Under the pieces are notes generated by a model. That model was not told the DNA's origin. It searched no databases and saw only the letters and a program-made list of their open reading frames with translations. A stretch of 64,000 nt of DNA, taken from contig JARUPZ010000011.1 of assembly GCA_031213475.1 (NCBI GenBank), positions 2,170,001 through 2,234,000 on the forward strand, written 5' to 3'. Made by a program: the position numbers and the translations under genes. This DNA is from Nereocystis luetkeana (taxonomy: Eukaryota > Sar > Phaeophyceae > Laminariales > Laminariaceae). Below are positions 10,301-54,274 of this stretch, one piece after another (the first letter of the stretch is position 1; each line of letters begins with the position of its first letter).

Positions 10301-13300
10301 GGACAGAGATTTCGACGAGGCATTTCCAAAGCCACCCTCTTTCGTTGAGTGTCCCCCCCCCCCCCCCCCCTTAACCCTCTTGCTGTTGCTGTCCCGTTTT
10401 GAGGACAAACCACTCAAAGTCTGAGCACTTGTCTCCAAAACGGGGCTGCAGTCCCGAGAGGGCTGAGAGAAAATTGGTTTTTGGAACGCCATCTCATCAG
10501 GGCGTGTGGTATCCTGCGTGTTGTAGTCACTAAGACAGAACTAAGTTAATGTATTTGAGAGCGTGGAGTCGTGCACGCTGGTCTAGCGCCAAAAGTTGTG
10601 GCAATCTCAGCAAAGCTACGTACTCCCGCACCGAGCCTGCTTGGCTGCGTCAAGGTTTGCGCTCCGAATAATCCGCAAGCACGAGGAAACATGTTTCCGA
10701 GATGTAGGATTCGGCTTCAGTAAATTCAGTAAATTGTCACCAGTTTGTATATATCCCCATGGGGATATAGATTGTAGATCGATGTTGAGCTGGACGTACG
10801 TATATACAGAAGGAAGGTAGACTTCAACGCGCATAGTTGTTGGGTCCCCCCCCCCCCCCTCCGTTGTATTTGTATTTCTTCCGGGTGAGGGTCCTTATGA
10901 TGAGTGCTACTAGCAGATGTTGAAGCTCGTGCTGCACATTGTCGAAACGCAAGCACAAAACAAGTGATATAACAATGACACTAACCCTAATCCTAACCCT
11001 CAGAACAAGGCCAACTCGTCTCGAGAAAGGGCAGTCTCGATGCCGAGAGGTTAGCAGGCACTGACTGAGCGATCAATAACAGCAGAGGTGGAGAGTTGAT
11101 AGCGATCAGCCGACTGCACCCTTTCAACGTGAATTATCGCACGAAGTCAGTGGACATCTACTGGGTCGTACGCACCCTATATATTCTATGTATGAGAGGA
11201 GTTTACGGAAGGGCAGAAGCCTTCTGGTTGTTGGGGAGGGGGGAGCCCATCACCTGACCGCCGCTTCGTATTCTCCCTCCTCTAGCTGGGCCTCTTTGAC
11301 TAGCTGCGCCTTCTTCATGTCCGCCTGGCGCTTCCGATCAGCCTAATTCGCCAGCCGAACCGTGGCAAAAAAGCAACGGTTAGCGCACTGTAATAGCGCC
11401 ATATCGATATACAATACTACCGTTAGAGTGTAAACACTACAGCCGATACAACAGTACCGTCATAACCTCTACGGCGTTGCGATAAAACCGGAAACAATTG
11501 TACGCACCACACATCTTGAACTGCTCAAATCGACCGCTCAAATCGGTCTAACTTGCAGCTCACGTATTTGCGATACTTTTACTGATATGAAAAGCTGGGT
11601 ATCGACCAATTTCTGTTGACCTCACAGCTGACGTATTTAGAGTACAGCCCCCTCCCCCGGTGTTGATGGTCGTACGACTACAGCCATGTGTGGCATGAAC
11701 ATCCCCCCCACCCCCCGATAAATGCGGGCAGTATGCTGACGTCTGCCGTCGGACAACCAGTTTGGCTTTCTGCCCACGGCTCCGCTCCTGAAAACCTAGC
11801 TCGCAATGTAGATGTGCACGAGCCATTGCTCGTCGAATAATAAACGGCAGCTGTCACGCACGTTGAACACCTACAGCTCGGCGTGGCCAAGCAGTCCTCG
11901 CCGTATCTAAGACCGATGGAAAAACTACCAAAAGCTATCGTAGCGGCGTGGTAGTGTTTCCAACGAGCAACCTCGTATCATGCCATTTGATCCGCGACGC
12001 AGCCAGAAGCCATCGCCGCTAGACCAAATGTATCGCTAGTTTAACAAGTCGAAGACTCCGTCTTAGCTAGAGTGGCACAGCCCTTGCAAAGGGCGTGATG
12101 AAGACTAAGGCAACCACTGAAGACTAAGGCAACCACAACCACTGAATGGTAGATACGTAGAGTAGCTCCAGCGCGTTCACCGCACAGCATAACGCCACTT
12201 GCGAACACCTCTGATAAAAATGTATTGATACCAATCAGCATCGATCAGAAGATTTAGATACGTACGTCGTCGAATGGCCGGATAGTATCACCTGTAGCTG
12301 GAGTACGTCCTTCTGGCGTTTTTGCGCGGCGAACCTCTCGCGATGCCTCATCTCACGCTCCTGTCCGTCACCGAACGAATCGCGAAGTCAACACGCCGTG
12401 GCAATGCAAAGAAAGGGTGCCTGGCTGCACCTGACTGCTCGGAGCATGTTTCGAAACGAGTGGAGGGCTCTCGTCCTACTGTGTTGCCTGTGTTTCCTGG
12501 TATGTAGTACCTGGTATACAAATAGAACACTGACATGCATTTTGACTCGGCCGCCCGCGGTGCCATACCTCAGCTACAGAGTACATTGACGTGCACTTAG
12601 AAGCGGCGACTATCTTCTTATTGCTACGTACCGCTCTGGGCCGGAGTGTGGGAAACCCTCGGTCTTCATGTTTATACCCATCCCTCCTTAGATTTCTACG
12701 ATATTGTGTTTTACATCAGACAGACAATGTTTAGCTGTACTGTAGCTTCAACGCTGATCACCCATGAACAATCCCTCAAAGAAGAAGAACACCAAGCGAA
12801 CAAAAAATAATATATTTATCGACATGCAGTTTCAAACAGACGTCATGCATGCATACAAAATACATACACACATACATACATACATACATACATAAATACA
12901 TACATACCAGGTACATACTTACATACATACATACATACATCATACCTACATACATACATACATACATACATACATACATACATACATACATACATACCTG
13001 GTACATACATACATACATACACACACATGCATACATACATACATACATACATACATACATACAGACTGCGCTTCAAAGGAGAAGACCCCACGACGAAGAC
13101 GGGTTGGGCCGGAGCATTTTTTTTCGATGAACAAGTACGTCGTACAAGTTTGTGTTTGGCGTTGCTCTGTCTCAAGTGGAAGCTTGACCTTCCCTCGACT
13201 ACTGGTGATTCGTCTACGTTACGCTGGACGCCCCGTGCAAACGCGTTAGCCAGGTGAATTTGCAGACACCAAGAGCCTCGTACAGCTCTCGTCGAAACCG

Positions 13301-16300
13301 TGTAGCGCGCCGGCGGGTGCGGGCGTTCACGGTGGCCGAGCAAGAGGCATCAGCGGCCGCTACACTGGCATGTTACCATTGCGGGGGACCGTAGTAAATA
13401 GGACCAACTATTGTTCGTAAAAAAAGAGAATTATATAGGTTTTGTGTGTACCGTAGGTCCTATTTACTATGGTCTCCCGATATACCAATATATAGTAATA
13501 GTGCTCCCGTTCGCCTACAGCCAGAAACGGTACCAACGATTCTGGTATCAGTATGTCACTACGATAGTCATAGTAAGAGTGCTCCCCTTTGCTTCAAAAC
13601 CCGGTGACAGCACCACACAGTACCACACAGCACCACTGCTGCACGAGCTGCCTTACTAAAGCAACTAAACGCTGCGAGCAGTGGACGAACCACATATCTA
13701 CTACTTTGCAATCTACTATTGCAACGACTCCGCGCTCTGTACACGCCCGACAAAAGGAAAGACATCTCAACAAGCCGTACGTGCTCCCTTTAAGACTTTG
13801 GGGGAACCGAAAGCACTTTAAGTTTTCCCGACCCACCTTCTCTTCGGCAGAGCGCCTGGCCCTCAGCTCATCGAGCTCAGCGCGCTTGTCCATATCCCTC
13901 TGGTTCGTTGAAAATAACGGTCAAATCAATTGGCGGTGATTGGGTGGTGTTTTGACGATACTATATGTGCTTTGAACACGCTTTTGGGAGGGGCTTCATT
14001 TCATTTCATTGAGATGTTGAGTGGCAGGTCAGCGTTGAGGGACGTTTTTTGTGGGATTGATTGTGACGGGGATGGGTCAAATATCGAGTTCGCGTCCTGC
14101 CGACGATGCCTTGTTTTGGTTAGGGTCCCAGTCTGCTAGGCGTGCCGGTAAGAGGTTAATTTTTTGAAGATTTTGCTGGTACGTAGTCCAGCCCATCACA
14201 CGAATAACTTGATAACAGGGTACAGCAAGCAGCAGTTTTCCTGGCAGATTGCCCTAGGGGTTTCTGTTGTAGTTGGCCTATTAGACGGGGGGTTCGAGGT
14301 GGTCGTTGTTTCCCAGTCCTCCGAACTAAAATGCCGCGGAGAGAAAGAAGCGCGGCGTTTCTTCATCCACCGAGGTACGTAGCTTTGTGCTTTCACGCAA
14401 CTTCTGAACGAAAAAACGATCCGATCTGCCAATAAAATTCGAGCGTATTCATAGATGTCAGACTGAAGCCTTCACCTCATCGAGCCACCTGTCAGACTCG
14501 ACTTAACTCCACAACTTTTTTTTTTCGTTTGGGTCTCAAGTACTTCAGAACTGACCCCACATGTTTGATACGAACTACTTGGATTAAGTATGCGATATTT
14601 CTGCAGTGGTCCGCGGAGGCGGTTTGTAGGAGAAAAAACTGAGGTTGCCCAACTCCGGACTATGATGTGGTGCAGGTGGGATTGTGATCCTTGCATTTCA
14701 GCCTTGTCGTCTCGAACACGTACGCACGCACGCACGCACGCACGCACGCATACAACACTAACTACTCTTTCAGGAATAACCCGGTTACCGGGGTGCAAGG
14801 TGTCGAGTTCCAGTAGAACGTAGATTATTATATGAAATGTCATGCAACTGCCATGCAAGTGGGGGGGGGGGGGGTAAATCACTAATATACGCGTCGATCG
14901 AGAGCAGAAAAGCTCCGCACGTATTCACCTGCTGTCCTTCCAACAGCTTCTGCTGCCTGGCCTTCATCATCTGGTCTCTCTCGGCCTCCGCCACCTCTCG
15001 GAGCCGCATTTCCTCGTCCTGCGCAGTGCGTTGACAAACGCGGGGCACAAAAACCGACATCCGCAGACAAGCTCAGTACCCAAAGCGGAACAAATATTTC
15101 TGGTTTTTGTGCTGTGTACTCGAATACAAAGCACACTACGTGGTCCGCATTGCGTAGCCGCCAACACGTACCCATCGATCTGTCTACATCTAAACGACGT
15201 AGCTGAGTCCTGTGCAATCAAACAGGGCTGATCCGTACCGAGGGCTACATTAGGGTGCAGGTACGGTTGCAGGGCAATGAGCCACACCCTTCCCGGCGCT
15301 CCAGCACAGCGATATCGATGGGCCGAACTTCTCGGAGCGCCGTAACCCCGCATGCGCATAATGAGCACGACCGTGCCTGAGGGAGAAATACGTATACCTC
15401 ATGCGCTTGGCTCTTCTGGACAAGCTACCATCGGGTATGACTTCAACCCAAAGTGTAAACTGGACGTCATGGATCTTTTCGACTGTTTTAGGCTGGAGGA
15501 AAACAGCGTGAGTCAGACGACCCCCTCGAAACATCTCGCGACGAGATACGCACTCTACGTAGCTTTAGAGTTTTTTTGTTTCCTTTCATCATCCCATTCG
15601 TGCTGTTTGCCCTTCCTCTCCAGCTCCCTCCCTCCCTTTCGTAACTCAGATATACTATTAATGGTATGGTCACATAGCAGGCACCTATCCCCTACTACGG
15701 TTCTTGCCTTGCAGTTCTATCGTGAAAACAGTTCGGCGTTACATTGCCTCGTCGACTCGCGTCGAATCGTGCATGTAATACAATACACACGCTGCAATAT
15801 GCGCTATCTGCTAGCTGGTGGTTCCTTGAAAACGTAAGCAAAAGGCCCTTGGCTGGATTCGAACTCACGCAATCGGCCTTAAGACAGCAGTAGTCACGAG
15901 CTTCAGCCGCTCTAATGGGGGGCTACAGTAACACATATTATAGTACTGTAGTAACTAGTACTAAATACTATTTAATAATACATACTACCAGGTAATACAT
16001 TATAATACATACGACTACATACGACACACTACTACATACATACTATTAACACATACTAATACACACTAACACCTAATAATAAATACTACCTGGTAATGCG
16101 TACCGGGGGGGAGAAGGGGCGACACCTGTGAGACCACGGCTCGTCTAGAAGATCACTGAGGGTAAAACCTCCTACGAGTTAGGCTGGAAAGTAAAAGTGA
16201 TGACTAAAAATATATATATATACTTCGAAGTATATATATATACCACGTAGTAATCGTAACCCACGATAGATCGAAACAACACGTACCTCCGTGTGTTTAC

Positions 16301-19300
16301 ACAACATGCTTGGCTCTGACTACTTTTAATATTACTACTATTACTATGTCCCCCTGTAATCGTTCACCGGGATGACCGAACCTACTACTGTGCCAATTTT
16401 TCCCGGCACTCCAACGCGGCAATGTGGCGCGCCAAATTTACTTCCAATATGAATACCGTTCGCAAGTGCTGAGCGTCGTATTACGGGGGACCATAGCAAG
16501 GGTCTTAACGGAGAGTTTTTTTCTAATTTTTCGACATTTTTTTCGCGCGCTTTTTCAATCTTCCATATTTTCCTAACTTTTTTTTCCAAATGTGTGAAAT
16601 ATAAGGGGCTTGATTTTTTGCTTCTGGAGAATTGCACGAATAGTGACAGAACGCCTCCGTATATTGATACGTATCTTCCGTTATTTCCAAACTTTGGAAA
16701 TTATGGAAAAAACGCTGTACGATAAGAATGAGCTTAAATAGGACCAAATACTTTTAGTAAAAATGCGCGCATATGTAGGTTTTTGTGTGTACCGTGGGTT
16801 CTATGCACTATGGTCCCCCGTGATAGTACTATTATTATTACTATCCACACGAGCTGAGCGTCGTCGTGGTGCTGTCGCAGGATATACTTTTGTGAGGTTG
16901 AGGGAAAATCGCGTGAATCAGACGACCCCCTAGAAGCGACGCGCGACGAAATACACATGCACCCTCCTCGTAGCGGGGAGGACGTTCTCGGAGGTACGTG
17001 GACGGACGGTACCTTCATGGCCTGGTAGGCTAGGATGGCTTCGACTTCCTCCTGCTCCCTCTGTTTGGCCGAGCGGCGCACCTCAATGGCCGCATCGTTT
17101 GCCGCCATGACGGCCCCCCGAGCTTCCCGAACCTGATCAACGGCAGAAGCGTGTGTAACATTTACTGCTTCCCGCTAGAAGGAGCGCTGGTTATCGGGCT
17201 ACTTGAGTCAGTCGCATGACTGCGATATGTAGGCTAGTGGGGGGTGCTACATTGGCTCCTTAAAAAAGAAACAATCAATTAACTCATGCTAGACAGCTCA
17301 TGTAGGTCTGAGTAATGTCACCCATCCCTGGCCTCAAACAAACAACTGCGAACTTCGTACTAAGTGTGTAACCGCGATTAGGCCGAGACAATACGTCGAT
17401 ACACGATTTATTTGTGCAGTATGGAACCCACGATTTGCGACCGTGCGCATTGCCCGTGACGAACGTACACCACAAACAGCTTCGGAGTATACCCAACAAA
17501 ATATGGGCGCGGTTTCAAGTCTTGTCAGCAACGCCAATTCGCTCAAAACGATCAGATGATCGTTTGAAGGCCTTGAGGGTCGGCACTACTGGTAGTCACG
17601 CGACTGACTGAAGTAGACCAGCAGGTACTGTAGTTGGCTCTGCTAGGGTTAACACATACCTGGTATTGTTTGTACCTCTCGTGGTGATTTACGTAGTTGC
17701 CACTGCTGTCGGTTACAAAGCAAACACGTCTTTCTCGGCACGTTAACACTACCAGTACACCAACAGCTTTGCATTACCTCCAGGGGCTGGAAGTTAATCG
17801 ACCGGTTTAATCGGGTTGGTCGAGAACGACATGTTCGCGCCCTTAATGCCCCGACTTTGACGTCCTACATGCCAGGACCCGAATTTGTTCCGAGGCTACG
17901 TATCAAGGTCCGAAAGGTAATTCACGTATTCGGCTGCTGGTGGGTCATACATACTGCGGCATCGTTGACATCTACGGCACCGGTTCTGTGCGGATGTATG
18001 GAATACCGCGATTCTGGTGCCGCTCGCAACATATTCTTTGCCCCCCACCTTGCCGTTGTAGTCAACGTTTGACGCCGCTGAAGCAGGAAGGGGGACACGA
18101 AAAAACCGAATCGACACCCTACTTTACGTTTCAAGACCCAGATAGGAGGGGCATACTGACACCAAGTTGAATTAAACTGAAAAAAGAGGATTTTTTTATT
18201 CGCACAGAAACCCCATTCCACTTGTCTGTTTTACATTCTGACCCTTCAGGGAGTGTGGTATTGTTTTCTCTTAGCGTCATGTACCCCTGGCCGAGGCAAC
18301 GCCTATCTTCAAGATTAGCATTGCAAGTAAAAACAAAATCGCACATAAATGTGCAAGTGCTTCGAAAGGTATTACCAAGAAAGTGGTATCGAGACCGCGT
18401 CACATGATATTTGTGGTGGACTAGCCCTTCCGTCAAGCAGAACGGTCAACACACCGCACACAAAAGTGAGGAGGGTGTTCCCCAAGCCGACTTACCTGTA
18501 GATCTCAGGTCTCAGAGTGCTAGCATCGCTCGAGGCATGGTCGAACGCCGAGGAACGACGCAATCGGCGGTGCTCATTTTAACTATCACCGATAGTGTTT
18601 ACGACTCATATATAACCCAGCTTCGATAAAATGGTTGATAGTCCCTAGTACCGTACATCCTCGTTACATCTTCATCCCAGACGTTTACCTGGTTGTTAGG
18701 GTTAGGGTCTAGGTGTAGGGTTAATAGACTAGGTCGGGGTCTATATGCACGTAGAGGCTTATTTGAACAGTGGGCTTGCCTCGATAGCCTTCTTTTCTGC
18801 CGCCGCCTTGTCTTCGTCGGCGTAGCGTTGGATTACGTTCAGCATGGCGCGGTTTTCCTGCCAAACAAGCAACGCGATTGGAAGAGCTCGTCAACATAGA
18901 GGTCGGACAACATTCAGAAAGGCGGGGTTTCCCTGCAGAACGCTGCAACCGAGAGCATTCGTCCGCGTGGCGTTGGGTAACGTGCAACATGTCTATCTAG
19001 TACGGTTCCCCTGCGAAACCATGCATTTCAAAGAGCACTGAGCACTGAAACAGAACTTCGTTGGAGGCTTGGATCGGTTGCAAGAGCCCCATAGCGCTGG
19101 GTGGGATTACTCAATTAGTCGAGGGATACCTGCGCCACGGTGTCGTACATAGCACACTCAAGAAAATCACTCAAGCGCGTGGAAGATGTATCGATCTCAA
19201 GAAGCAGACACAGGATAACATTTAAGCCTAGAATCGGCAGCAGTAGAGCTATCTCAAACCAGTTGGACCCTGAAGCTAAGGAAGTTGGTGACTCCTTGCT

Positions 19301-40800: not shown

Positions 40801-43800
40801 AGGGTGCCTGCTGCAGTGTCGATGAAAAAGCGGAAAGCACAAATGGACTCAGGCTGGTATTGCGGGGGACCATAGTAAATAGGACCCACGGTACAGACAA
40901 AAACATACATTTTTTGGTCCTTTTTTTACGAAAATCATTCGGTCCTTTTTACTATGGTCACCCGTAAGAATGCGTTGGCCTTGTTCGTGTTCGTGTTGGC
41001 ATTGTACTTGGAAAGGGTAGAGGTGCAAGGCGGGGGTGAGGGGGTTTAGGGGGGAGTGGCGGAGAGGGGTGAGACGGGAGGGGGGCATTTTGGTACTCAC
41101 GCGCTCTGTACAAAAAAACACTCGCGCGTTGCGTTGATCATTCTTGGATCAACGAGCAACATGTTATATACCTGGTACCTGCTAGTGTGCGGGTTGCTTT
41201 GCTGAGTGGTATCACCCATGGTATGCCAATGTCTGCATAGTCGGCGTCCGAAACCTAGAGCCGGCTCCACCTACCGGATGGAGCCCACCACTCCACTAAC
41301 GAACACTACTGCTGTAGAGTGCCGATTATTGATACTAGGTAGTTTGGTTTCGATGCCGTTTGATGCGTGAGGTGGACGACTCCAATGCTATCAGTGCTGC
41401 CGTACGTGTCCTCCACCCCACCTCTGCAATGAACATCGCCTCTTTTACTTTTACGTGAGAGCATTCCAACATTTTTTCCCTGGTAATTGCGTGATGGACT
41501 GGGTCGACTTTTCTGTAACCCCAACACAGGTTCGAGTTGGCTCTGGCGGCGAATGTAAAGGTGGTGGAGAAACAGCGAGCCGCAGCTGAATTGAAGGCGT
41601 CGGAAGCTAAGTTGGAGGCGTCGAGGTTGGAGGCCGTAAGGGTCCGGGAGAAGGCAAGAGAGCTGCGCGAACGAGAAGAGCACGAGGCGGCGGTGGCGGC
41701 GGCGGCTGCCGTCGCAGCGGCGGCTGCGACGACGGCCGCAGGCACCGTGCAGAAGTGGTGGAGAGGCACGCGGACCAGGCGGACCCTGAACGCGGTGCTC
41801 CTGGAGAGACGGATGGCCTTCTTGTCTGCGGAGCGCCGGCGGCAGGTGAGGGTGTTTGCGGAAGCTTTATCGGAACGAGGAGAGGGAGTGTTGGGGTTGA
41901 TGGTTGCGGGCATCTTGTTTTTTCTTAGATAGGTGGGGGGGGGGGGGGGGGTCGGGGGGGTCGGGTTTCGATTGCTCGTTTTGTTTGTTCGCGTGCGTGC
42001 CGGTAGGGATGAGATGGGAAAGGTTCGTTTTTCTTTTCTGTGGGGTGGTGTCGATGTGCCCTCTTTGTGCCGCAGCTCCAGTCCTCGCAATTTCGATTTT
42101 TCAAGTTGGGTCCGGGCGACAGATGCGCTGTGCTTGATTGACTCGGCTGGCTGACTGTGCTGTCCTGCGGTACCTGACATGCTGCCAATGTTGGCGCTAT
42201 GGTGTTTTGTCGTACTGCCATTTTTGTTTTATGAGTTTTCTGAGTTGTTGTCATGCCAATCAATGCCCGAGCAAGGCAAGGGGGGGGAAGTAAGGGCCGT
42301 GGCAAGCGTCGGTCGAGGGAGATGATACCATGATTTTTCGTCCCATACCACAGGAACTTTGCAAGAGCAGGGCAAGTAGGCCCCGAAGCGCGCAGCGTTT
42401 CCCCCCAGGGTTGTCCCCGACAAACAGAACACATTTGTCTCTGGCATTCTTACACCTGCTAATGCTTGTTGTGCATGCTGAGGATGCGTGCGTAATGGAT
42501 TTCGACGGCGCGTTTGCTGGGGCCTTGAGTTCCCTGGTGTTATCGTAACGTCTTTATTTTGCCATCATGGCACAACGGTGGTACGTACCTACGTGGCTCT
42601 GGTTGTTAGCCTCTGGGTGTCTGTGGCCATCATGGGGAACACCCACCCCACCCAACCCCACACACCCCGTGTGTTTCGGTCACACGTCGCACGGTTCGGT
42701 TGACCATATGCTTCGTATCGTTTTTTGTTTTGATGGGATACTGCTGTTGCTGCAATACGAGAATCAATTGTGCACTACCAGCACCGAGTACGGAATAGCT
42801 CTACTGCTGTAGGAGCAATTGCACCTTGACACATGTTGCTGTATTATATATCATGGTGTGTACAGGTACGTACTATGAAATACCGGGTACCGGGTGCGTA
42901 TACATGACACTTGGGGAGGAAGCATTTGCACCTTGATACCTGTACCTGTACTGCTTCATTATCGCACCAAAACGTGCGCTATGGATTAGGAATTGGAGGA
43001 GCACTTGAGAACCACCCGGGCGTTGACACCTACCGGTGTGCTTTCTTTTCTTTTCTGTGGGCGATGCATCTGTCGTGTGTTTCTTATTGTGGAGCACCTG
43101 CCCCTTGACTCGATGAATCCGCCCCCTATAGTCCGTCACGATGTTCGCTTTCCTTAAAATATTTTTTTCTTCTTTCTGCCGCTTTTTGTTGTTGACATGG
43201 CTTGCTTGGACGCGAAGGAATTCTCCGAGGCGAACATGAAGGACAGCCAGGTAAGGGTAAGGTGCTAGGGTGCAGGTCTGTCTCCTGCTGACTATGGTGT
43301 GATGGGCTTGGCCGGGATGGGTTCATGGATGGGCACTAATGGTAACAGGACAGGAAGGGTACATGTAGGCAGGGAGTAAGAGCACAGAACAAGAAAACAT
43401 ATCGAAATGACGCCGGGAGAAACTGTCTGTTGTATCTGCGTACTCCCAGACCGTTTTCATACAACCATTTTGTCCGCCCCGGCCACTCAACATTCGTGAC
43501 AGCCGGCCAACACGCAGCTTGTCGATCCCGGTATACGATAGTAGATGGTTCTACCAGTTCTACCGGTATACCGACAAATGGTAACTGTTTACGTAGATGG
43601 TACAAGGTTGTCCCGGTATACGATATTAGATGTAAAATGGGTGTACAGGTAGATGATAGATGGATGAACTACACCGGTGTCTTGTATATATCCGCCAGAA
43701 GTTGCCGGTTTTCGTGACGTGCGCCTCTCGTTGGTCGACGAGCACAGGTGCGGCAGAACGTGAGCCATGTTGTTGCCCCGGTAGGGGTATGGCGGAGTTG

Positions 43801-46800: not shown

Positions 46801-49800
46801 GACCGTCATGGTTCGGGATGGATTAAAGCATATCGATCTTCATATTTCGGGACAGATTCAATCCAAACGGCCCTTGTTACTGGAGTATTATTTTTTTTCC
46901 GGGTCATATTCAATCCAAATGGTCCTTATATTCGGTATAAATGATGGTCCTTCTGTTCCGGGATAGTCCAATCCAAACGGTCCTTATATTCGGTATATAT
47001 TACGGTCCTTATGTTTCGGGATAGATTCAATCCTCGGTATAGATTACGGTCCTTCTGTGTCGGGACAGATTCAATCCAAACGGTCCTTAAAATTTCGGGA
47101 TATCTTCAATCCAAACCGTCCTTGCAGTTCGGGATATATTCCGATCCTTATAGATTGCGGTCCTTCTGTGTCGGGATATAGTCAATCCAAACGGTCCTTA
47201 CATTTCGGGATATATTTAGGTCCTTGTATTTCGGGACATATTAATCCCAAAGACACATCACGGTCCATTTATTTCGGGACATGTTCAATCCTAACCGTCC
47301 TTATATCCTTAGATTCCGGTCCTTGTGTTTCAGGATATATGTAGTCAATCGCAATAATCCTTATATTTCGGGATATATTAAGGTCCTATTACGGGGGACC
47401 ATAGTAAATAGGACCAAATATTGTTAGTAAAAAAAGCTAAATATAGAGGTTTTTGTGTGTACCACAGGTCCTATTTACTATGGTCCCCCGTAATAGCATT
47501 TCGGTACAGATTCCATCCAAACGGTCCTTCTATTTCAGGATGCATTCAATCCAAACCGTCCTTATATTTCGGGATATAGTCAATCCAAAAGATATTTCTG
47601 GACATATTCAATCCAAACGGTCCCTATCTTTTTGGTGTAGGACTGGTGTGGTGTTTGGTACTGCTATATGGTGGGACTGCCCCATCGCCCATCTGCCTCC
47701 CCCCTTCACGCGGCTGTCGGTTCTTGTTTCCCCCTCCGTGGATCCAAGGCAGGCTGCGCCACCTGACTCTCAATCAACGCTGGGCAGCGGCGGAAACTGC
47801 TAAAGCAACGAGTAGTGTTGTTTGAGTTCGACTCAAGCCACGCTGCTCGTTCCTTCAGCCGTCTCCGCCGCTGCTCAGCGTTGATTGAGATCCAGACGGC
47901 GCAGAGCCCCAGATCTGCGTTGGGTCCGAGGGGTGTACTGATATCATGCGTGGCCGTAGTCGTGTGACTCGTCCCTCTATTACGGGGGGCCATAGTTAAC
48001 AGGACCAAATATTGTTAGTAAAAATGGTTAAACATATACCCTGGTAGGTTTTTATGTACACCATAGGTCCTGTTAACTAGGGTCCCCCGTAATAGTCGTG
48101 TCCGTCTCTGCTGGGCGTTGATTGGAAGCTAGATGGCGTAGAGCCACAGCAGTGCCTGCATTCGCCTGCGTTGGATCCGACGTCGGGAGGGAGGGGGAGC
48201 GAGTACAATGGGCGATGGGGTAGTTTCCGTCGTATCAGTTTTGTTTATTTTTTGTCATCGCTTTCACTTTCCACCTTAACTCGTCGGAGGTGTTACCCTC
48301 AGCGACCTTCTGGACAAGCCGTGGTCACAGGTGTCGTCCCTTCTCCCCCCCCGGTACGTGCCTTTATTTTGTGTCGCGCAGAGGGTTCAACATTCCCACT
48401 GCTCGTCGATTTTCATCGAATGTAGCTAACTCACGCTCTCGCGCTTTTCGCTATTACGGGGAACCATAGTTAATAGGACCAAATATTGTTGGTAAAAATG
48501 GTAAAATATATAGGTTTTTATGTATACCATAGGTCCTATCAACTATGGTCCCCCGTAATAGTCAATCTTTTTATGCAAGAAAAAGTCCTTACAAGCATGC
48601 ACTCGGTGAGACTCGAACCCACGAAATTGATCATATACGAGCGTAGCGATTTCCGAATTACGAGGAACGAGCTTCGATTTTTCCCCACGAAGGCAGTTTG
48701 TACATAGAACGACGATCTCTCAGGTAAAACCTGGAACAACAAACGTACCAGGTAATAATATGGCCGTGAGGCCTGGCGTAAAAATCCGTGTCTCGCGGAG
48801 GGCTCGGATCGCGACTTGATTGCGCTGTTGATTTTTTTTTTTTGTTCAATGAAAGTCCCGGTTCTGTTCATATTTTCATTGATGTTTTGTGTTTTGTGGT
48901 TTTTTTTTTTACGAAGTTACGGTTTCTGTTGTTTTTTTCATCGGTGTTACATGGTTGTTCTTTCTCTTCTCAGGCACGCCGGAGTGGAGAACGCAAAGGC
49001 ACGAGGGGCGGGTTAGGTGGCCTCTGGGCAGACCTCGTGAGGTAAGCCTAGTCAGCTCAGTCGAGTCGTGGATAAGACAATTGCAAGTAACCGAAGCATC
49101 CATAAAAATGGTTGACTTTCTTTGAGATAACTACTCTTATGGCAAAATAGACATTGTTTACCAGTATACCGTACCTGGATACTGTCTGTACCACCCCCGT
49201 TTTCGATTTTTGGATATTACAGCTGAGTTCGATTTTTTGTTTTCCCTTATGAAGACAACACCCGGAGATGTACTCTGGATGTCCCCTGGCGACCGCAGAA
49301 CGCTCTTAAACACTATGTACGCACCGCCATTTTTACTACTGAAACGTATTACATTCATCCCCAAGATTTTCCTCTGCGACGTCCCCCGCGCCGTGTTATT
49401 CGGGTTTTCCGCCGTTTTTCGTATCTCCATTTCCTTTGTTCCACTTTTATCGTTCTGCGACGTCCGCCGGGTCTTGTTGTTTTGTTTCTGCAGGCACGTG
49501 TCTTGGAGGTCCGAATCAGACAGCGACAGTGACAGCGGGTTGTTCGGGAAAGGAAGACGTGGACGCCTCCAAGCAGAGAAGGTGTGACCAGCGGCCAGAG
49601 TTACAGCAGTCGTGATTTTAAGGCCAAGGGTGTACCAACATATTGATGTACCAGGTATACACTCCGGTTGTGATTGAAGATCTAGGATGTGCTTTGTGGG
49701 GTATAAAGTTTGGTTGAGATCCGAGACGGAGGTGTGTTTAGTAGCGTGTAAGCGCTGGGGAACCCGGGTGCCAAACCTGGTTGTTTTGGTCATACTCGGG

Positions 49801-52800
49801 TAGGTACCTGGGTACCAAATCTGGTTGTTCTGGTCACATACCCCGGTAGGTACTTGGGTAGGTACCCGGGCACTCCAAGAGAATGAACCATACCAAACAT
49901 CTCCCTAGATTTAAACCTGGTAGATTTCAACCCTCACGGCCGCGCGGTGGCCCAATATATCCCCAAGTTTCCTTGGCTGCTGCGGTGTGATACCTTCTTC
50001 GCTTGCCATTGCTTTCAGGTACAAAATCTCAGTTGGCTACTTGAAGCAGCCGGTGGATTCAGACCGCTATTGCTCTGTGGCAGTGACGACAGAGATCCGT
50101 TGGATCTGTTACATCATTCACCGCGTGGCTAACTGCACTAAACACATACCTGGTACCATTACATGCACGTACACGACAAGTTTCGGACGTTCCTGCGCGA
50201 ACCCCGTCAACTGTTTTGCTGTTGCCGCGGACTTGGCTCCAACGATCGCCCTTTGCAGTGACGACAGAGATCCGTTGTAGTTGTCTAGAGCACCGATTGG
50301 TTGCCTGCCCAACAGGTATCTGGTATCTATGTATTCATTGCTCACAGCAAGCACCGGGAGGGGCTTGGATTGCGTCGATCGACCGACTGCCGTGTTTTGT
50401 TGCCGCGAGTTACCGACAAGAGAGGACGCCTTCTGTACAACGATCGTGGCTACCCGACAACGGCTATATTACCGTATCACACAGAGTGATAAGATAATAC
50501 ACCACCCCCTGGGACAAAATTCCGAGCCGAGTATCTCGAATCCCAGGAGGGCACGCACATAATATCCATCGAAAAACAGTGGCTTTGGAAATATCTCGTC
50601 GGCATCTTTGCAAAGACACATCGCTCGGCCTTTGTCGAGAAAATCAGCCTTGATATCCGTTCGAGAGTGTGTGTTATCGTGCGCGTCATACGGTGTGTCG
50701 TCCGACAGCGATTCTGCTTATCTATGTATACATACGTAACGATTGTGGTTTCCTCTGTACAGCACACACGCCGATTGTGTGGCTCGACAACGATTGTGTT
50801 GTTGGACAAAGAGCATACTGCTGCTATCCAACAACGATGACGAACGTGTTATCCGACGACCAACATGCTACCCGACCACGGAGTCGTGCCTTATGTACCG
50901 AGTTGTCCTCTGTACAGCGAATAATTTTATCCGACAGCGATTAAAATGATTGCCTGATTGCCTGACCGGGGGAGTACACTAAGAAAACAAACCGGACACG
51001 CCACTAGCCATTTGCGAGACCCAGACAACGGAATATAATAATACCAAGTAAAATACAACGATGACAACAACAAAAATCTCGTTTTTCGTAAGCTCGAAAA
51101 AAAAGCCCACGGCGCTGGTTTGTCTTTCATTTTGACGTTCGGGGAGGAGCGTAGATGTCGGTTTCTTCTTTTGCCGAGCACCCCGGGCGTAACACGAGTA
51201 TGTTTTACCCCGACATGAACACCTGCTGCCGATACCGGTATCGCTGCTGCTCGCACAAGGTGGACGAGGAGGGCGATTGCTGCGATGAAAAGGGCCATGG
51301 TGTGCTAACGTCGGAGGTTGAGGCCTGGAAGTTGTCGTACATCACCAAAGAGGTGCTTGGCTTTTCTAAGGCCATGAATGCCCAGGAGGCAAGGGCTCGC
51401 CTCCACTCCAAACGCGGCACCGACGGTGAGAGGGGTAAAGCTACTGCTGCTGTACCAGGTAGATATTACACTTTGCTGACTAAATGTCGCCGACTAGCCA
51501 TTCGTTGGCTGTACATTACGGTAGGTTTCCTGCGGTACTTGGAGAAGATGGTGAGAGATCGGAAACCGTCTCGAGAATGATCTGTTGGTTGTTGTTCCAG
51601 AGATAAGTAGGCGTTTTGGTTCATAATCTTTGGCTAGAATAACTCACTCTGATAGCAGTAGCGTTCGGACTGTTTCGTTGATAGCGTGAGTGGGAATACG
51701 AAGTGGATAACAGCACGGAACGGTGCGGACAGACTGGTAAAACACGCCAATAGACAGGGCTGCTGCTGGGCCAGGTATATCGGGATTTCTACTGTAATTA
51801 ATTAGTGCAGTACAGCATCGTTGCTTTATTTAGTTCGTACCGGGTACTTCGAAGTAAATATATATTTGACGAATAATGAGGCGTGTCTGCTGCGATCAAC
51901 TGACGATTTGTGGCTTGAATTGCGTTTTTTGTTGTATACCTGGTAGTAAAATACTTGTAGTAAAGTTGGGTGGTTGGCTTATTCTGCTCTCCCCGACAAA
52001 TACCTAGCCGTGTGGTTTTCCAGCCAACTGAGAAGCCCTAGCAAAATCAGAGGCGCCTTGCTTCCTTACCGCATGAGCTTGATGCACAACAGCTGCTACG
52101 TTATTCTTCGCGTCGCGGATACTATGATCTCCGTCGCGTTCTGTGTCCGTCCGCACTATGAGGGTTGTCCGGCAGTCTTTTTATGCTTGATAGATACTAT
52201 TTCGGGGGACCATATTTAATAAGACCTCCGGTACACACAAAAACCTATATATTTCGCTATTTTTACTATTAATAACAATATTTGGTTCTATTTACTTTGG
52301 TCCCCCGCAATATGAGCGGGGCCAGCCATAAAACGGAGAAAGCTTCCTGAAGTCGTATCTCGTGAACCACTGTGACTTGAACTACATAAATTGGAATCAC
52401 TTACCCTGACACACCACTGCTTGTACCAAAAAAGTTGATAAAAAAATCTACTAACCTTTTCGCCGAGATATTCGCGAAAAGCCGAAAAAAACATATTTTT
52501 TTTTCACTAATTTCTCAAGAAATTATCGTTTTCGATCAAGATGAAATGTGGTGGAGACAGAGCTGACGGCATATGGGGAAGGTCAATGTGAGTTTCGTTG
52601 CCCAATTCGCCACCCACCCATCAAAAGGTATGACCAAAACTCGATTCCATATATAAATCCAAGTAATTACGAAAAAATGGCCCTTCTGCGACGCGCCGCT
52701 CATTTTTGTTTTTTTTGCGCTGAAGTTTGAATCGCATATCCAAAGGCACTGAGTGTCGACCTTCAGTGGTTTCTTGTTTTTTCACTGTTTTTGGTCGCTG

Positions 52801-54274
52801 TTGTGTCTTCTCGGATTGTTAGAACGGTCATATCTCTCGGGGAAATAAAACGAAATTTCGGATTGTTGAAGCGGTAATATCTCTCTGAAAACTACTACCT
52901 GGTACCTGGTAGTGAAATAAAATTAGAAGGTCGACACTAAAAGCGTCGGTGAGTGCATTGCATGACTACACCGTGTCGAAACGTCAGGTCCAACTTCGTG
53001 AAATTGATGACCAATACAACGTTTTAACCTTGTTTGAGGCTGGCCCAGGTCGTATGCACAGCAAGGTATACACTATAGCGGTACCTAACTACGCCTGTAC
53101 GTTACAAATTTATGTTTACTTTGGTATGGTCCGGTACAAGGTAATGCCGTTCATTCACCACAAGTTGAGCTTCACCTTGGGTTAGCCATGGTGCGATGCA
53201 ATTGAATATTCTACACCACTGTACAAGTTCATCTTCTCCTTAGAAATGATTTGAGAAATTACCCGGTAGCCTCTCCCTGCGTCATAAATTATTCGACCAC
53301 CTGCCTTAGATCTTAGATAGCTTTCTAACCCCCCCCCCCCTCCTTGCTCCGTCTCGAAAGGGATGTGTGGTCAAGGGTCAAATGACTAAGGCAAGCAACA
53401 AATGAGTACCCCCCCCCCCCCCCCTATCCTATGTATCATACAACAATATAGGCTGGGTTGGCGTCGGTTGGCAACGAGACTGTAAACATACCGCTCATTA
53501 CGTAAGCTAGACTAGACAAACAGGGTACCGTTTGTTTTTTTGTTAGCTTGTTTTCGGCGGTCGGTCACAGCTGGTGGTCAAGTTAGATTTTTTTTTTGAT
53601 CGTATATTGTACCTGGTAGTGTTTATGTTAAGGCACCCAAGAGGCAGTTATGTAGTCGTCCCATTGCTGTCTCCGGAAGTGGCCACACCGGAAATTAAGT
53701 TAACTCATTGAAGCTGTCATCCATATGCAAGGCCGCATTTCATGCGGTTCTTAGTAGGATGCAGCTTACCATTCATGCGACTTACCAGACACCTCACGGC
53801 GCTTCGCGCGTGATGCAAACAATGTCTGTCTGGTTGGTGAAAACTCGACATGCTCCATTGTAGGTATGCCCATGCATAATATCGAGTACCCCCCCCCCCC
53901 CCCCATGTTCCATCCCGAAGGGAATGCGTGGACAAATGGTAAAATGAGTAAGGCAAGCAACAAATGAGTCACCCCCCCCCCGCCCGCCATGTCATACGAC
54001 TACGGCCATGCATGAGATCGAGTACATCTCTCCTATCGAGTACACCCCCCCCCCCCCATGCACGACAATGAGCACGCCCACCCCCCCCTCGCTCTCACTT
54101 GGTTCTTTCTTGAATGTCGGTTTGTGTAATGCGTACCTTTTTTCTGTTTCAGATCGCTCGTGGACACCTCCGGAGGACTCTCTCACTCCGGGAAAGGTGG
54201 TGGCTATTGTGTCCGTCGTCTTGTCCGTGGTCTACGAAACGGCTCTCGCAAACGCCGCAGCTGTCGGGGGTTAA
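25426..54274 (+). CDS. Fimbrin/plastin-type tandem CH domain protein with IQ motifs and coiled coil, ~15 exons
   Basis: Phase-compatible exons from ATG 25426 join into about 920 residues. Residues 1-144 are basic and Ser/Pro-rich. Residues 145-268 form a CH domain with FHDGVLMCRLVCLAIPG and VVNIGAADIIEGRPASILGL. Residues 269-397 form a second CH domain with LPAEEILLRWFNHHL and YNIAFVAQLLNRRP. Both resemble the first actin-binding domain of fimbrin/plastin, and the exon 1-2 join YNLEEK/VAFACHLN matches the family's EEEKVAFVNWIN. Fimbrins continue with CH3-CH4; here IQ-like segments follow (about 455-470, 547-562, 670-685), with an Ala/Glu coiled coil (about 480-545) and basic, Ser-rich and acidic stretches. 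No EF-hands are seen. The likely role is calmodulin-responsive actin or cytoskeletal binding, by inference. Exons 1-8 are firm, 9-13 moderate, and 14-15 and the true 3' end uncertain. Confidence 0.75.
25858..28164. other. CH/IQ gene intron 1
   Basis: This 2.3-kb intron has many TACCAGGTA and TACAGCAGTA words, a G-run cluster at 26059-26091 and no recognisable nested gene. Confidence 0.6.
26059..26091 (+). other. G-quadruplex-prone G-run cluster
   Basis: GTGGGGTGGGGTGGGGTAGG and a following GTGGGG give five runs of at least three G with one- or two-base loops, about 200 bp into intron 1 on the coding strand. Confidence 0.7.
28165..28321 (+). CDS. CH/IQ protein exon 2 (CH1, first half)
   Basis: Acceptor CCCCAG precedes VAFACHLNRYLLGDPFLKHL, then FHDGVLMCRLVCLAIPGSV. 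The DG-x-x-(L/M)C-x-L-x-x-x-x-x-P core is the hallmark of fimbrin CH1. Donor GTAAGG, phase 1. Confidence 0.88.
28388..29060. repeat. Inverted pair of ~170-bp repeats (foldback)
   Basis: The segment around 28388-28555 (GGCCGAGGCTGGCCTTTCAG, AACGTCACCGAAACACGC, GACCTCAAGATCCCCAAAGG) recurs in inverse complement at about 28870-29060. A poly-T tract and further short inverted repeats (GCATCCTGCACAAAA) lie between. CCCTAACCC words lie at the inner edge of the right arm. Confidence 0.7.
28600..28725 (+). repeat. Dispersed CAGATCC...TCACATAGCAGG repeat copy
   Basis: It contains CCATCCCATTCATTATC, AACTCAGATCCGGGGTCACA and TAGCAGGCTCTTCTCCCC, as in the copies at 238-340 (minus), 6110-6210 (minus), 15570-15715 and 62165-62215. 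Confidence 0.65.
29537..29893. repeat. Degenerate repeat of CCGTTGGATTCACGGACCG type
   Basis: Five or more imperfect units built on GTTGGATTCACAGACCGGAC and its variants, partly inverted, in intron 2. Confidence 0.6.
30913..31008. mobile_element. TTAA-type near-palindromic MITE, copy 3
   Basis: It starts TTAACCCCTTTGGTACTGCA and ends GACTGCGGTTCTGAAAGAGTTGA. The right TTAA has decayed to TTGA. Confidence 0.7.
33482..33696 (+). CDS. CH/IQ protein exon 3 (CH1, second half)
   Basis: Acceptor GCACAG completes the split Ala codon. The exon encodes ATENLNVALTAAEAAGLQVV and NIGAADIIEGRPASILGLSW, ending LLAQINLK, aligned with plastin NLNLAL...VVNIGAEDL...GLLWQIIKIGL. Donor GTGCGG, phase 0. Confidence 0.9.
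33846..34375 (+). repeat. Dispersed ~500-bp repeat with poly-C tail, copy A
   Basis: It runs from GGGTTGGCGCGAGCGACACT through CGGTCGGTCACAGCTGG, GAAGCTGTCATCCGTATG and CGGTTCTTAGTAGGATGCAG to GCATCCCCCCCCC. It aligns along its length with 53452-53900 and with the partial copy at 2285-2450. No ORF is evident. The poly-C end may be diagnostic of the family. Confidence 0.75.
35059..35165 (+). CDS. CH/IQ protein exon 4 (CH2 start)
   Basis: Acceptor TGGAAG precedes GCPDLIHLMEEGEVKEDFYQ, then LPAEEILLRWFNHHL, matching plastin LSPEELLLRWANFHL. It ends phase 2 at donor GTCCCA. Confidence 0.87.
35422..35533. mobile_element. TA-flanked MITE, copy 4, carrying a TACCTGGTA insertion
   Basis: It matches the family except that the internal ACCGTAGGTCC reads ACCATACCTGGTAGGTCC. 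That is a 7-bp CCTGGTA gain right after TA (word at 35497-35505). Confidence 0.85.
36159..36237 (+). CDS. CH/IQ protein exon 5 (CH2)
   Basis: Acceptor GATCAG precedes WGGSERRVSNFGEDLSDGRC, then YITLMK, matching the plastin NFSADIKDSKAYFHLL region. A second possible acceptor 12 bp downstream (GGAAG) would keep frame and shorten the linker. Donor GTCAGC. Confidence 0.83.
36957..37065. mobile_element. TA-flanked MITE, copy 5 (inverted)
   Basis: Both ends are intact, from TATTACGGGGGACCATAGTT to its inverse complement ending GTAATA. The interior is in the opposite orientation to copies 4 and 7. Because the reading is palindromic at the ends, orientation was taken from the ACCTACATAT interior. 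Confidence 0.88.
37930..37975 (-). repeat. tRNA T-arm-like segment
   Basis: The minus strand has GTTGGTTCGAATCCCACGGT, a perfect T-loop context, but no pairing D-arm or anticodon arm upstream is obvious. It is possibly the remnant of a tRNA-derived SINE. Confidence 0.3.
38141..38604 (-). pseudogene. Possible decayed antisense gene fragment
   Basis: In intron 5 the minus strand contains an acidic, codon-like stretch ADEEEPNSSDDEQPEENAA and, in another frame, LWKESWVVITFQLARKTF. The two are separated by a frame change, as in a decayed coding sequence. No family is recognised; a transposase N-terminus is one guess. Confidence 0.25.
38636..38884 (+). CDS. CH/IQ protein exon 6 (CH2 end and linker)
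   Basis: Acceptor GTCGCAG precedes ELNDNFKGDEGDWPDEDVKR, with LYNIAFVAQLLNRRP closing CH2. It then encodes RIHRESLHLDASVAMQ before donor GTTGGT. The 3' end of this exon with its splice donor is repeated several times in the following intron. Confidence 0.85.
38831..39835 (+). repeat. Tandem copies of the exon 6 3' end with its splice donor
   Basis: The exon 6 end (CGCATTCACCGGGAAAGCTT ... GTGGCAATGCAG, donor GTTGGTTGG) recurs at about 39003-39065 and 39505-39560, with degraded versions near 39325-39385 and 39779-39835. Intervening DNA is TGTTGG-type simple sequence. Copies 2 and 3 keep the codons RIHRESL(H/R)LDASVAMQ, mostly with synonymous changes. Confidence 0.8.
39206..39302. mobile_element. 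TTAA-flanked near-palindromic MITE, copy 4
   Basis: TTAA occurs at both edges. The arms are AACCCTTTTAGGACCGCAGT and CTGCGGTTCTAAAGGGGTT, with GTCCCGTTTTGGGGAC words facing each other. Confidence 0.85.
40246..40433 (+). CDS. CH/IQ protein exon 7 (Arg-rich, IQ motif)
   Basis: Acceptor CCGCAG precedes AWYRMVTVMRRTTPLIRRRR, an Arg-rich helix, then RAAITLQAWQRGGAGRVA, an IQ-like motif with the central LQ-x-x-x-RG. It ends phase 2 at donor GTGACG. Joined to exon 6, VAMQAWYRMV also has IQ spacing. Confidence 0.72.
40858..40967. mobile_element. TA-flanked MITE, copy 6 (diverged)
   Basis: The left end GCGGGGGACCATAGTAAATA is intact. The right end reads ACTATGGTCACCCGTA with one change. The interior is diverged, with GGTCCTTTTT repeated. 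Confidence 0.75.
41530..41845 (+). CDS. CH/IQ protein exon 8 (coiled coil and IQ motif)
   Basis: Acceptor ACACAG completes the split Arg codon. The exon encodes a heptad-rich helix (LKASEAKLEASRLEAVRVRE), an Ala-rich stretch and AAGTVQKWWRGTRTRRTL, a clear IQ-like motif. It ends SAERRRQ at donor GTGAGG, phase 0. Confidence 0.8.
43219..43251 (+). CDS. CH/IQ protein exon 9 (microexon, 11 residues)
   Basis: A 33-nt segment EFSEANMKDSQ between acceptor GCGAAG and donor GTAAGG is phase 0 at both ends and fits between exons 8 and 10. The AG is the first after a long pyrimidine tract. The upstream in-frame ATG (43197) is not needed. Confidence 0.5.
43731..43885. repeat. Partial copy of the exon 10 splice-acceptor region plus poly-C tracts
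   Basis: CGACGAGCACAGGTGCGGCA followed by GAACGTGAGCC resembles the exon 10 acceptor at 43953-43985 (GACGAGAGCACAGGTGCGGC, AGAACATGAGCC). Two long C runs (43818-43831 and 43860-43883) follow. Confidence 0.6.
43967..44148 (+). CDS. CH/IQ protein exon 10 (Ser-rich)
   Basis: Acceptor GCACAG precedes VRQNMSRRTSASSSVRLSED, and the exon ends SWFDKVFKGISFAGGPS plus AG at donor GTACTA, phase 2. An alternative in-frame acceptor lies nine bases later. It has no known domain. Degraded copies of its 3' end lie downstream. Confidence 0.65.
44100..44870 (+). repeat. Degenerate tandem copies of the exon 10 3' end with G-rich spacers
   Basis: The exon 10 end (CAGCTGGTTCGATAAAGTCT ... CCGAGCAG) has decayed relatives at about 44285-44330 (TCGGCTGGGTCGATACAGTC) and 44655-44715 (CAGTTGGGTCGATGAAGCCG ... 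GATCCCAGCAG). G-runs and a TGGTCGCATTGCTTGT-type segment accompany them. The unit length is about 350 bp. Confidence 0.6.
44330..44427. mobile_element. TTAA-type near-palindromic MITE, copy 5
   Basis: It starts TTAACCCCTTAAGAACCGCA and ends CTGCGGTTCTAAAAGGGG. This is the most perfect palindrome of the family. It lies inside the exon 10 tandem array. Confidence 0.85.
45396..46036. repeat. Minisatellite, unit ~109 bp, about six copies
   Basis: The markers GCAGGAATCTGTTAT (45478, 45811) and GCAGGAATCTATTAT-type variants (45596, 45705, 45920) are 102-118 bp apart. Each unit contains AGATCATAATATTAATAGAT and GTGTATCTTCCCTGAACTAT. Single related pieces lie at 6920-7230 and 9495-9715. Confidence 0.88.
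46379..46637 (+). CDS. CH/IQ protein exon 11 (IQ motif, charged helix)
   Basis: Acceptor CCACAG completes the split Ser codon. The exon encodes AAAAMVIQRWQRAHADAK, an IQ-like motif, then ALHKAYSIKWRFEIAARKE and a run of Glu before donor GTGCGT, phase 0. The longer overlapping reading frame in this stretch has no family match and breaks phase. Confidence 0.72.
46826..47640. repeat. Degenerate minisatellite of TTTCGGGATATATTCAATCC units
   Basis: About 18 units of 35-50 bp built from TTCGGGACAGATTCAATCCA and AACGGTCCTTATA fill most of this part of intron 11. The array is split by the MITE at 47387-47495. Confidence 0.85.
47387..47495. mobile_element. TA-flanked MITE, copy 7 (best consensus)
   Basis: Both ends are perfect (TATTACGGGGGACCATAGTA and inverse, ending CCCCCGTAATA). 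The interior AATATTGTTAGTAAAAA and GGTTTTTGTGTGTACC gives the family reference. It is nested in the minisatellite at 46826-47640. Confidence 0.92.
47978..48094. mobile_element. TA-flanked MITE, copy 8, with an 8-bp insertion
   Basis: It equals copy 9 except for CCCTGGTA inserted after TA in the internal ATATAGGTTTTT, giving ATATACCCTGGTAGGTTTTT at 48035-48051. Confidence 0.88.
48452..48560. mobile_element. TA-flanked MITE, copy 9
   Basis: It starts TATTACGGGGAACCATAGTT and ends AACTATGGTCCCCCGTAATA. The uninserted interior serves as the empty-site comparison for copy 8. Confidence 0.88.
48598..48675 (-). repeat. tRNA-like (B-box-bearing) segment
   Basis: On the minus strand GTGGGTTCGAGTCTCAC forms a complete five-pair T-arm. 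Upstream GGAAATCGCTACGCTCGTAT is D/anticodon-like, but the acceptor and anticodon stems are imperfect. A pseudo-tRNA or SINE head is likely. Confidence 0.4.
48974..49041 (+). CDS. CH/IQ protein exon 12
   Basis: Acceptor TTCTCAG follows a strong pyrimidine tract. The phase 0 frame reads ARRSGERKGTRGGLGGLWAD then LV plus AG, with donor GTAAGC. No domain is recognised. Confidence 0.6.
49494..49581 (+). CDS. CH/IQ protein exon 13 (Ser/Asp-rich)
   Basis: Acceptor TCTGCAG completes a split Arg codon. The exon encodes HVSWRSESDSDSDSGLFGKG then RRGRLQAEK at donor GTGTGA, phase 0. The SDSDSDS run resembles a casein kinase 2 target stretch, which is inference only. Confidence 0.62.
49582..51154. other. 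CH/IQ gene intron 13
   Basis: It contains a ~25-bp direct repeat GCAGTGACGACAGAGATCCG (50080 and 50255) and a stretch (50370-50950) of degenerate CCGACAACGATTGTG words. An open stretch after GCTTTCAG at 50019 (VQNLSWLLEAAGGFRPLLLC) is phase-compatible but has no family support, so it is not called an exon. Confidence 0.5.
51155..51425 (+). CDS. CH/IQ protein exon 14, 5' boundary uncertain (Cys-rich)
   Basis: An open frame includes CCRYRYRCCSHKVDEEGDCC, then VEAWKLSYITKEVLGFSKAM and NAQEARARLHSKRGTD. Phase 0 starts are possible after CGTAG (51155) or after CACAAG (51260). It ends phase 1 at donor GTGAGA. It could instead be the first coding exon of a separate gene, because ATG stands at 51155. 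Confidence 0.5.
52198..52312. mobile_element. TA-flanked MITE, copy 10
   Basis: It starts TATTTCGGGGGACCATATTT and ends TTACTTTGGTCCCCCGCAATA. The inverted interior includes an extra ATTAATAAC. Confidence 0.8.
53452..53900 (+). repeat. Dispersed poly-C-tailed repeat, copy B
   Basis: It aligns with 33846-34375 through CGGTCGGTCACAGCTGG, GAAGCTGTCATCCATATG and GGTTCTTAGTAGGATGCAGC, and ends in GAGTACCCCCCCCC. It carries TACCTGGTA at 53610-53618, where copy A has a plain TG in an otherwise length-matched stretch. Confidence 0.75.
54153..54274 (+). CDS. CH/IQ protein exon 15, provisional terminal exon
   Basis: Acceptor TGTTTCAG follows a good pyrimidine tract. The phase 1 join gives DRSWTPPEDSLTPGK and then reads through to TAA at 54272-54274. 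GGAAAG followed by GTGGTG could be a donor instead, in which case later exons would follow. Confidence 0.45.

Follow-up and report, generated by a model that had tools for sequence, protein, structure and literature searches.

TACCWGGTA, a short word inserted at TA throughout the genome of the kelp Nereocystis luetkeana, is probably the excision scar of a cut-and-paste transposon

The 64,000-nt stretch of Nereocystis luetkeana DNA analysed here as a whole (G000:C11:2170001-2234000, hereafter the window) belongs to an assembly of 465,085,209 bases in 1,987 contigs and was shown to contain 37 exact copies of the 9-nt word TACCWGGTA, compared to 0.49 expected under a first-order Markov model. The recount agreed with a preliminary description of this DNA, which had given about 37 copies against about 0.5 expected and had assigned them to positions 12849-53618. 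Copies are present in that range, but they are not restricted to it and span positions 4 to 60400, i.e., the whole window. They are called scars here, in keeping with the interpretation given below, and are listed by window position with no strand assigned. Each was identified by the exact word unless another basis is given.

4..12: scar TACCAGGTA
1288..1296: scar TACCTGGTA
8751..8759: scar with an empty sister in the local duplication 8601-8698 (exact word and alignment)
12508..12516: scar
12905..12913: scar in a CATA array, register kept afterwards (empty-sister comparison)
12995..13003: scar in a CATA array, register kept afterwards (empty-sister comparison)
15986..15994: scar
16087..16095: scar
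17657..17665: scar
23944..23952: scar
24222..24230: scar
26652..26660: scar
27277..27285: scar
27578..27586: scar
29342..29350: scar
32857..32865: scar
34789..34797: scar
34877..34885: scar
34912..34920: scar
35334..35342: scar
35375..35383: scar
35411..35419: scar
35497..35505: scar within a copy of a miniature inverted-repeat transposable element (MITE), TA in empty sisters (repeat alignment and empty sisters)
37316..37324: scar
41169..41177: scar
48037..48046: 6-nt variant scar TACCCTGGTA within a MITE copy, TA in empty sisters (repeat alignment and empty sisters)
48746..48754: scar
49649..49657: scar
50147..50155: scar
51453..51461: scar
51937..51945: scar
52896..52911: tandem double scar TACCTGGTACCTGGTA
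53610..53618: scar, length-matched sister near 34036 reads TG (poor flanking alignment)
58328..58343: tandem double scar TACCTGGTACCAGGTA with mixed centres
59709..59717: scar
60392..60408: 6-nt variant scar TACCCTGGTA, its last TA common with a scar TACCTGGTA at 60400-60408

Genome-wide, 182,395 copies of TACCWGGTA were found (one per 2,550 bases, ~2.55 kb), compared to 1,744 copies of the word reversed without complementing. This comparison rejects a chance origin of the word and confirms the enrichment for which the preliminary description had proposed a genome-wide check. Since TACCAGGTA and TACCTGGTA are reverse complements and thus one word, their near-equal numbers and the A/T balance at the centre carry no information. 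A low-GC contig sampled along with the window (C300, locus L018) is plastid DNA and encodes a 510-aa chlB with 99% identity to a cluster whose named member is Undaria peterseniana, compared to 91% for Sargassum polycystum and 90% for Ascophyllum nodosum; provided that this contig comes from the same organism, a kelp (Laminariales) is very probable from the sequence itself. In a 310-kb set made up of the window and the first 35 sampled loci, including this plastid locus, TACC-N-GGTA was present 133 times, with T (67), A (57), G (5) or C (4) at the centre, compared to 21 and 14 copies of the same arms with zero and two centre bases, respectively (4.7 expected for each). Nine control arms with one centre base all showed at most 16 copies in this set, and against the 133 copies of TACC-N-GGTA the next two-base arm reached 16 in 300 kb. 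Scar density was patchy, ranging from 0 to 18 per 10 kb across the sampled nuclear loci; the value of 18 was found in L017 (C100:10001-20000, on a 58-kb contig), ~4.6 times the genome mean.

TACCWGGTA arises by insertion with duplication of TA. Repeats of the window and of the first 20 loci were aligned all against all. After filtering for identity and for clean flanks, the alignments contained gaps of 6, 7 and 8 bp at 23, 31 and 8 positions, respectively, and CCWGGTA was the commonest 7-bp class, with 10 gap positions corresponding to 8 distinct insertions (two were counted at two placements). As an example, AGTTAATA-GGACC in one repeat copy was found as AGTTAATA-CCAGGTA-GGACC in another. In a stricter test, the 40-bp flanks of each scar were joined by TA and ungapped sisters were sought in the sampled DNA. 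An empty sister was found for 14 of 129 scars, some of them mutually dependent: L014 contributes a tandem pair, it shares homologous scars with L016, and one CATA array holds two. At least one sister contained TA for 13 of the 14, and the best sister contained TA in 10 cases and TG in 4. The same test gave empty sisters for 29 of 1093 other TA-N5-TA words, and the 15 of these that were inspected lie mostly in microsatellites and in the palindromic MITE. Among variants of the word, empty sisters were found for 1 of 5 six-nt words, 1 of 10 TACCSGGTA and 0 of 21 TACCGGTA.

The preliminary description had proposed insertion at TA with TA duplication from six comparisons, five of which stand: the sisters lack exactly 7 bp (8 bp for the 6-nt variant) and mostly contain one TA. 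The MITE copy with the scar at 35497 is 7 bp longer, and the one with the variant at 48037 8 bp longer (CCCTGGTA), than several sister copies, in which the empty site reads TA. At 8751, two local duplicates that are 73% identical differ by a gap of 7 bp, and removal of these 7 bp leaves a single TA. The CATA array is in register again after each of the interruptions at 12905 and 12995. The sixth comparison, at 53610, is weak: removal of 7 bp restores the length, but the flanks align poorly and the sister reads TG instead of TA. TA, which had been expected at every empty site, was found at most of them, but some sisters read TG. The MITE is ~110-130 bp long with inverted ends CGGGGGACCATAGTTAATAGGACC and is frequent in the window and the sampled loci, where it is often hit by scars. 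Its copies in the window include 35425-35546, 36956-37066, 47386-47496, 48451-48562 and 52195-52310, among others.

All 113 full-flank scars in a 248-kb sample had distinct 12+12-bp flanks, and the word is thus not carried by one repeat, the case that the preliminary description had named as refuting its proposal. For analysis of target preference, 226 distinct flanks from both sides of the scars were compared to all TAs, and flanks with another scar were dropped. Chi-square values (3 df) were 58.7 at position -7, 46.5 at -6, 17.6 at -4, 21.3 at -3, 13.6 at -2 and 22.8 at -1, compared to 5.2 at -5 and at most 8.1 at -8 to -15. The preference was for A or T at -7, A at -6 and bases other than T at -4 to -1; its symmetry follows from the use of both strands of each scar. 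Such a preference, confined to the seven bases next to the TA, would be typical of a transposase target.

A 6-nt variant of the TACCWGGGTA type was found 13,000 times genome-wide (6,505 + 6,495), compared to 771 copies of its control (380 + 391). The idea that this variant is polarised was formed on 12 early cases (5 vs. 1 in sampled DNA, and 6 CCAGGGTA vs. 0 CCTGGGTA among 27 CATA-array junctions) and was then put to a genome-wide search, in which the first 100 places listed, all on contig C1, contained TACCAGGGTA 93 times and TACCTGGGTA 7 times. These figures become 87 vs. 7 when seven members of one array with a 528-bp period are counted once. In this array (G000:C1:1305185-1308353), seven units contain TACCAGGGTA, the scar having been amplified with the satellite. 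Slipped pairing of CCAGG overhangs would give CCAGGG/CCCTGG, which is one word, and not CCTGGG/CCCAGG. Gain of a G by slippage in the GG run was rejected as the source of the variant: the run is present on both strands of a finished scar, so that a ratio of 1:1 would result, compared to 93 vs. 7 among the listed places. The overhangs indicated by the variant are CCAGG, or CCAG at the least, and neither CCTGG nor the 3-nt CCA.

Together, we consider the TACCWGGTA words to be, as a rule, scars of sites that were repaired after a cut-and-paste transposon targeting TA, with CCAGG ends and 3′ overhangs of ~5 nt, had been excised, with a probability of roughly 0.75. Transposon agency, overhang length and repair route are what we infer. 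Such a transposon would insert at TA, duplicate the TA and later leave. Its ends would read CCAGG inward from the TA, and its excision would leave a 3′ overhang of ~5 nt (CCAGG) on each flank. The two overhangs would pair as C:G, C:G, an A:A mismatch, G:C and G:C, and mismatch repair in either direction would give TA-CCAGG-TA on one strand, while pairing shifted by one base would give the 6-nt scar CCAGGG/CCCTGG. The usual scar of Sleeping Beauty and Tc1, TAC(A/T)GTA, has a central A:A mismatch. By analogy with Sleeping Beauty, in which scar and overhangs are identical (see below), 5-nt CCAGG overhangs would be expected to give TA-CCAGG-TA. Enumeration of overhang pairings gave CCAGG with four Watson-Crick pairs and CCAGGG with two from 5-nt CCAGG overhangs, and CCTGGG from CCTGG overhangs. 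The preliminary description had suggested excision footprints with CC(A/T)GG-type ends; the pattern supports this, and the 6-nt variant narrows the ends to CCAGG, not CCTGG.

Several results weigh against this interpretation. Enumeration showed that a 4-nt CCAG overhang also yields CCAGG, CCAG and a less well paired CCAGGG. Shorter words were in excess as well, with 28 copies of TACCAGTA and 18 of TACCTGTA compared to 9.1 expected for each, and TACCGGTA was enriched (21 vs. 4.6 expected); its status as a scar is not established, because none of the 21 copies has an empty sister. TACCATGGTA was found twice, compared to 0.29 expected. These four excesses depart from a clean 5-nt picture and may come from variant repair, from decay of scars or from overhangs of 3-4 nt. 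Half-sites without a following TA had A and T centres in equal numbers (55 to 55), with no excess of A. The TA-flanked transposon with CC(A/T)GG termini that the preliminary description had proposed to search for was sought in inverted-repeat screens of ~0.3 Mb, in which no TA-CCAGG-ended element was found; where CCWGG ends formed pairs and their inner sequence matched, they lay at scars or inside longer repeats. Candidate junctions, i.e., places where TACCWGG precedes a base other than T, were read inward over ~64 nt (CATA arrays) or ~96 nt (MITE copies), and no shared terminal repeat was found at 47 of them (27 of 27 CATA-array and 20 of 54 MITE junctions), with a partner end within reach in 4. 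Finally, DDE_3 and Transposase_1 gave no genome match, in searches of limited sensitivity (control genomes were silent in one search) that leave absence unproven.

Six of the CATA junctions were 6-nt scars, and identical contig copies made up several of the 27. Four places were followed for 3 kb without a convincing partner end, and the array does not resume there. Of the MITE places, the reading covered 17 of the 21 that have A after TACCWGG, 2 of the 3 that have C and 1 of the 30 that have G. Eighteen of these 20 run on as MITE, the other two being L070 and L086. Sixteen of the 17 A-type places (L067-L083) read TAATA-CCA-GGAC, where CCA (3 nt) occupies the scar site and a second TA is lacking. 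Either microhomology repair between two GG pairs has removed GGTA from a scar, or these copies belong to a MITE subfamily that inherited the sequence. Two MITE junctions were shown to be scars with TA changed to CA.

Other candidates for an element end were rejected. The paired CCWGG ends at L014:7022-7629 lie in a longer inverted repeat that runs outward past both TAs, and TACCAGGCGGATTAG belongs to a longer repeat in L014 and L016. CCWGGGGTGYGTT, suggested as a terminal repeat by L037 and L040, had no convincing partner end in 3-kb reads. TACTCSGAGTA was considered as a second scar-like word and shown to be one local array, in which this near-palindrome is present in 14 copies (L008, 2881-3415). 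A large-insertion screen gave no lead to a source element, and neither did an Rfam search nor a Pfam search on 10 open reading frames of the window.

The pogo/Tigger transposase domain DDE_1 gave 28 genome matches. Among the 15 loci examined, TA-flanked repeats starting CAGTACCGGCC / CAGTACCGG were found at two (L031 and L034) and a long inverted repeat at L030, and no matching CCWGG pair was seen within the 1.5-kb flanks. The elements in L031 (235-2422) and L034 (168-2399) are of the pogo type; their TA-flanked repeats read CAGTACCGGCCCGCTAGTAAGAAAC, and in-frame stops interrupt the transposase match. Besides, an open frame of 415 aa in L022 (910-2157) resembles a DDE_1 transposase and matches HTH_Tnp_Tc5 below the cut-off, and no terminal repeats were seen within 1.5 kb. 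In the 310-kb set, TACAGTA (51 vs. 22.5 expected, ~2.3-fold) and TACTGTA (58 vs. 23.7, ~2.4-fold; Markov) were in mild excess, which the pogo ends CAGTACCGGCC fit; they do not fit CCAGG. The source element of the scars looks much rarer than the scars, extinct or of a kind missed by the screens, the ~0.3 Mb sampled setting a weak limit.

An ordinary Tc1/mariner element with CCAGG ends could also be proposed, which would cut 3 nt inside (CCA) and give TACCWGGTA by a one-base A:A overlap and fill-in. Insertion at TA with TA duplication is a trait of Tc1/mariner/IS630 elements that is seen here, the empty sisters containing one TA (some TG) and the scars two. Enumeration for a 3-nt CCA overhang gave CCAGG/CCTGG with a one-base overlap and CCAG/CTGG with a two-base overlap, and the excess of TACCAGTA and of TACCATGGTA, its end-to-end product, fits as well. 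According to the preliminary description, the inverted repeat of Mos1 begins CCAGG. However, in the enumeration a CCA overhang did not give the strongly enriched and polarised CCAGGG/CCCTGG, and its full-overlap product TACCATA was at background (38 vs. 36.6 expected). With no match to DDE_3 or Transposase_1, within the limits of that search, and a 5-nt scar that exceeds the published 2-3 nt (PMC2170065, PMC7827188 and PMC2642840), the Tc1/mariner identity suggested in the preliminary description was not upheld, and we regard this explanation as improbable. Less probable still is a micro-insertion process free of any element, in which an enzyme would cut TA with a 2-nt stagger and repair would add a 5-nt block. 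The screens and junctions, which contained no source element, are compatible with such a self-limited process, raised earlier as a second possibility, but it is not needed. It requires a separate source for one fixed 5-mer and leaves CCAGGG over CCTGGG unexplained, whereas pairing of overhangs predicts CCAGGG. It is very improbable, and largely refuted, that copying or selection multiplied the word as a constant component of repeat families or as a conserved motif for binding, since the distinct flanks rule out a single repeat family and the demonstrated insertions, into microsatellites and MITEs with empty sisters, rule out a binding motif, although the inverted repeats of L014 and L016 carry the word at homologous positions and the 528-bp-period array carries the 6-nt variant.

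The excision scars are heritable and mixed in age. In 300 kb, 124 exact scars were accompanied by 111 one-base neighbours compared to 59.4 expected, an excess of 51.6 (42.4 transitions and 9.2 transversions) that corresponds to ~0.42 changes per scar, or roughly 5% per site. Some scars were copied with their host repeat, as in L014/L016 and the 528-bp array, and the 182,395 are therefore copies, not events. The family in L014 (6980-7680) and L016 is a long inverted repeat whose two arms have a scar at homologous sites, one arm with an extra CCTGGTA. Tandem double scars had mixed centres in 2 of 7 cases in sampled DNA and in 3 of 8 among the genome matches listed, which makes repeated hits likely besides tandem duplication.

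Apart from scars, the window contains an exon at 33256-33798 with a match to the calponin-homology domain (E 2.6e-07), which may be fimbrin/plastin-like, and an Rfam tRNA match on the minus strand at 61492-61552 (35.9 bits) that was not called by ARAGORN. Poly-C/poly-G runs are abundant, with 85 overlapping 9-mers CCCCCCCCC and 54 GGGGGGGGG.

Cut-and-paste transposition is usually hard to see after the departure of the element. If the interpretation as excision scars is true, ~182,000 near-uniform scars would provide a datable genome-wide record of it, and they would report overhang length and repair outcome, so that the genome sequence could be used to study end joining in this alga. At such density, insertions of 7 bp could give rise to many small variants. 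More tentatively, a TA-targeting transposase cutting 5 nt inside its element may have left scars that vastly outnumber a few resident copies, adding 7 bp per 2.5 kb; the scars, and not the elements, might then form its visible genomic record, a suggestion that we hold to be somewhat less likely than not.

Among the literature matches listed, there was no description of such scars in an alga, and among the 20 listed of 217 papers that contain the word as a letter string none was on transposon scars by title. Sleeping Beauty cuts three nt inside the element and leaves 3-nt 3′ overhangs at the donor, the scar being identical to the overhangs (PMC7827188). The 3-nt overhang of Sleeping Beauty and Tc1 differs from the ~5 nt inferred for the kelp scars, for which no source was found and which have a genome-scale density. 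Mos1, other mariners and ISY100 (IS630) target TA like the kelp scars, and the footprints that they leave in vivo agree with cutting 2-3 nt inside the 5′ end (PMC2642840, PMC2170065); in contrast, the dominant scar here is 5 nt and the variant 6 nt, the cut being read from its products, and no matching transposase family was detected. The pogo/Tigger (DDE_1) elements of the same genome have TA-flanked terminal repeats as expected here, but their ends, where seen, read CAGTACCGGCC, which would not give CCAGG. Passer, of the pogo superfamily, is a cut-and-paste element that resembles the kelp scars in its short footprints, which are 0 to 4 bp (PMC9976928) compared to 5 nt here. PIF/Harbinger elements produce a 3-bp target duplication, TNA or ANT (PMC12477816), whereas the kelp scars duplicate TA only, and piggyBac targets TTAA with footprint-free excision (PMC7351741), unlike the TA and 5 nt of the kelp scars. 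In rice, a genome-wide comparison of footprints of DNA transposons (mariner-type and others) found 8 of 94 excisions to be perfect, and the others contained deletions and/or filler (PMC4423477), whereas one scar form dominates in the kelp. If the interpretation is true, a TA-targeting transposon with a 5-nt stagger falls outside the 2-3 nt range of the papers cited above for Tc1/mariner/IS630 elements, and such a 5-nt cutter would possibly be a new type of transposase.
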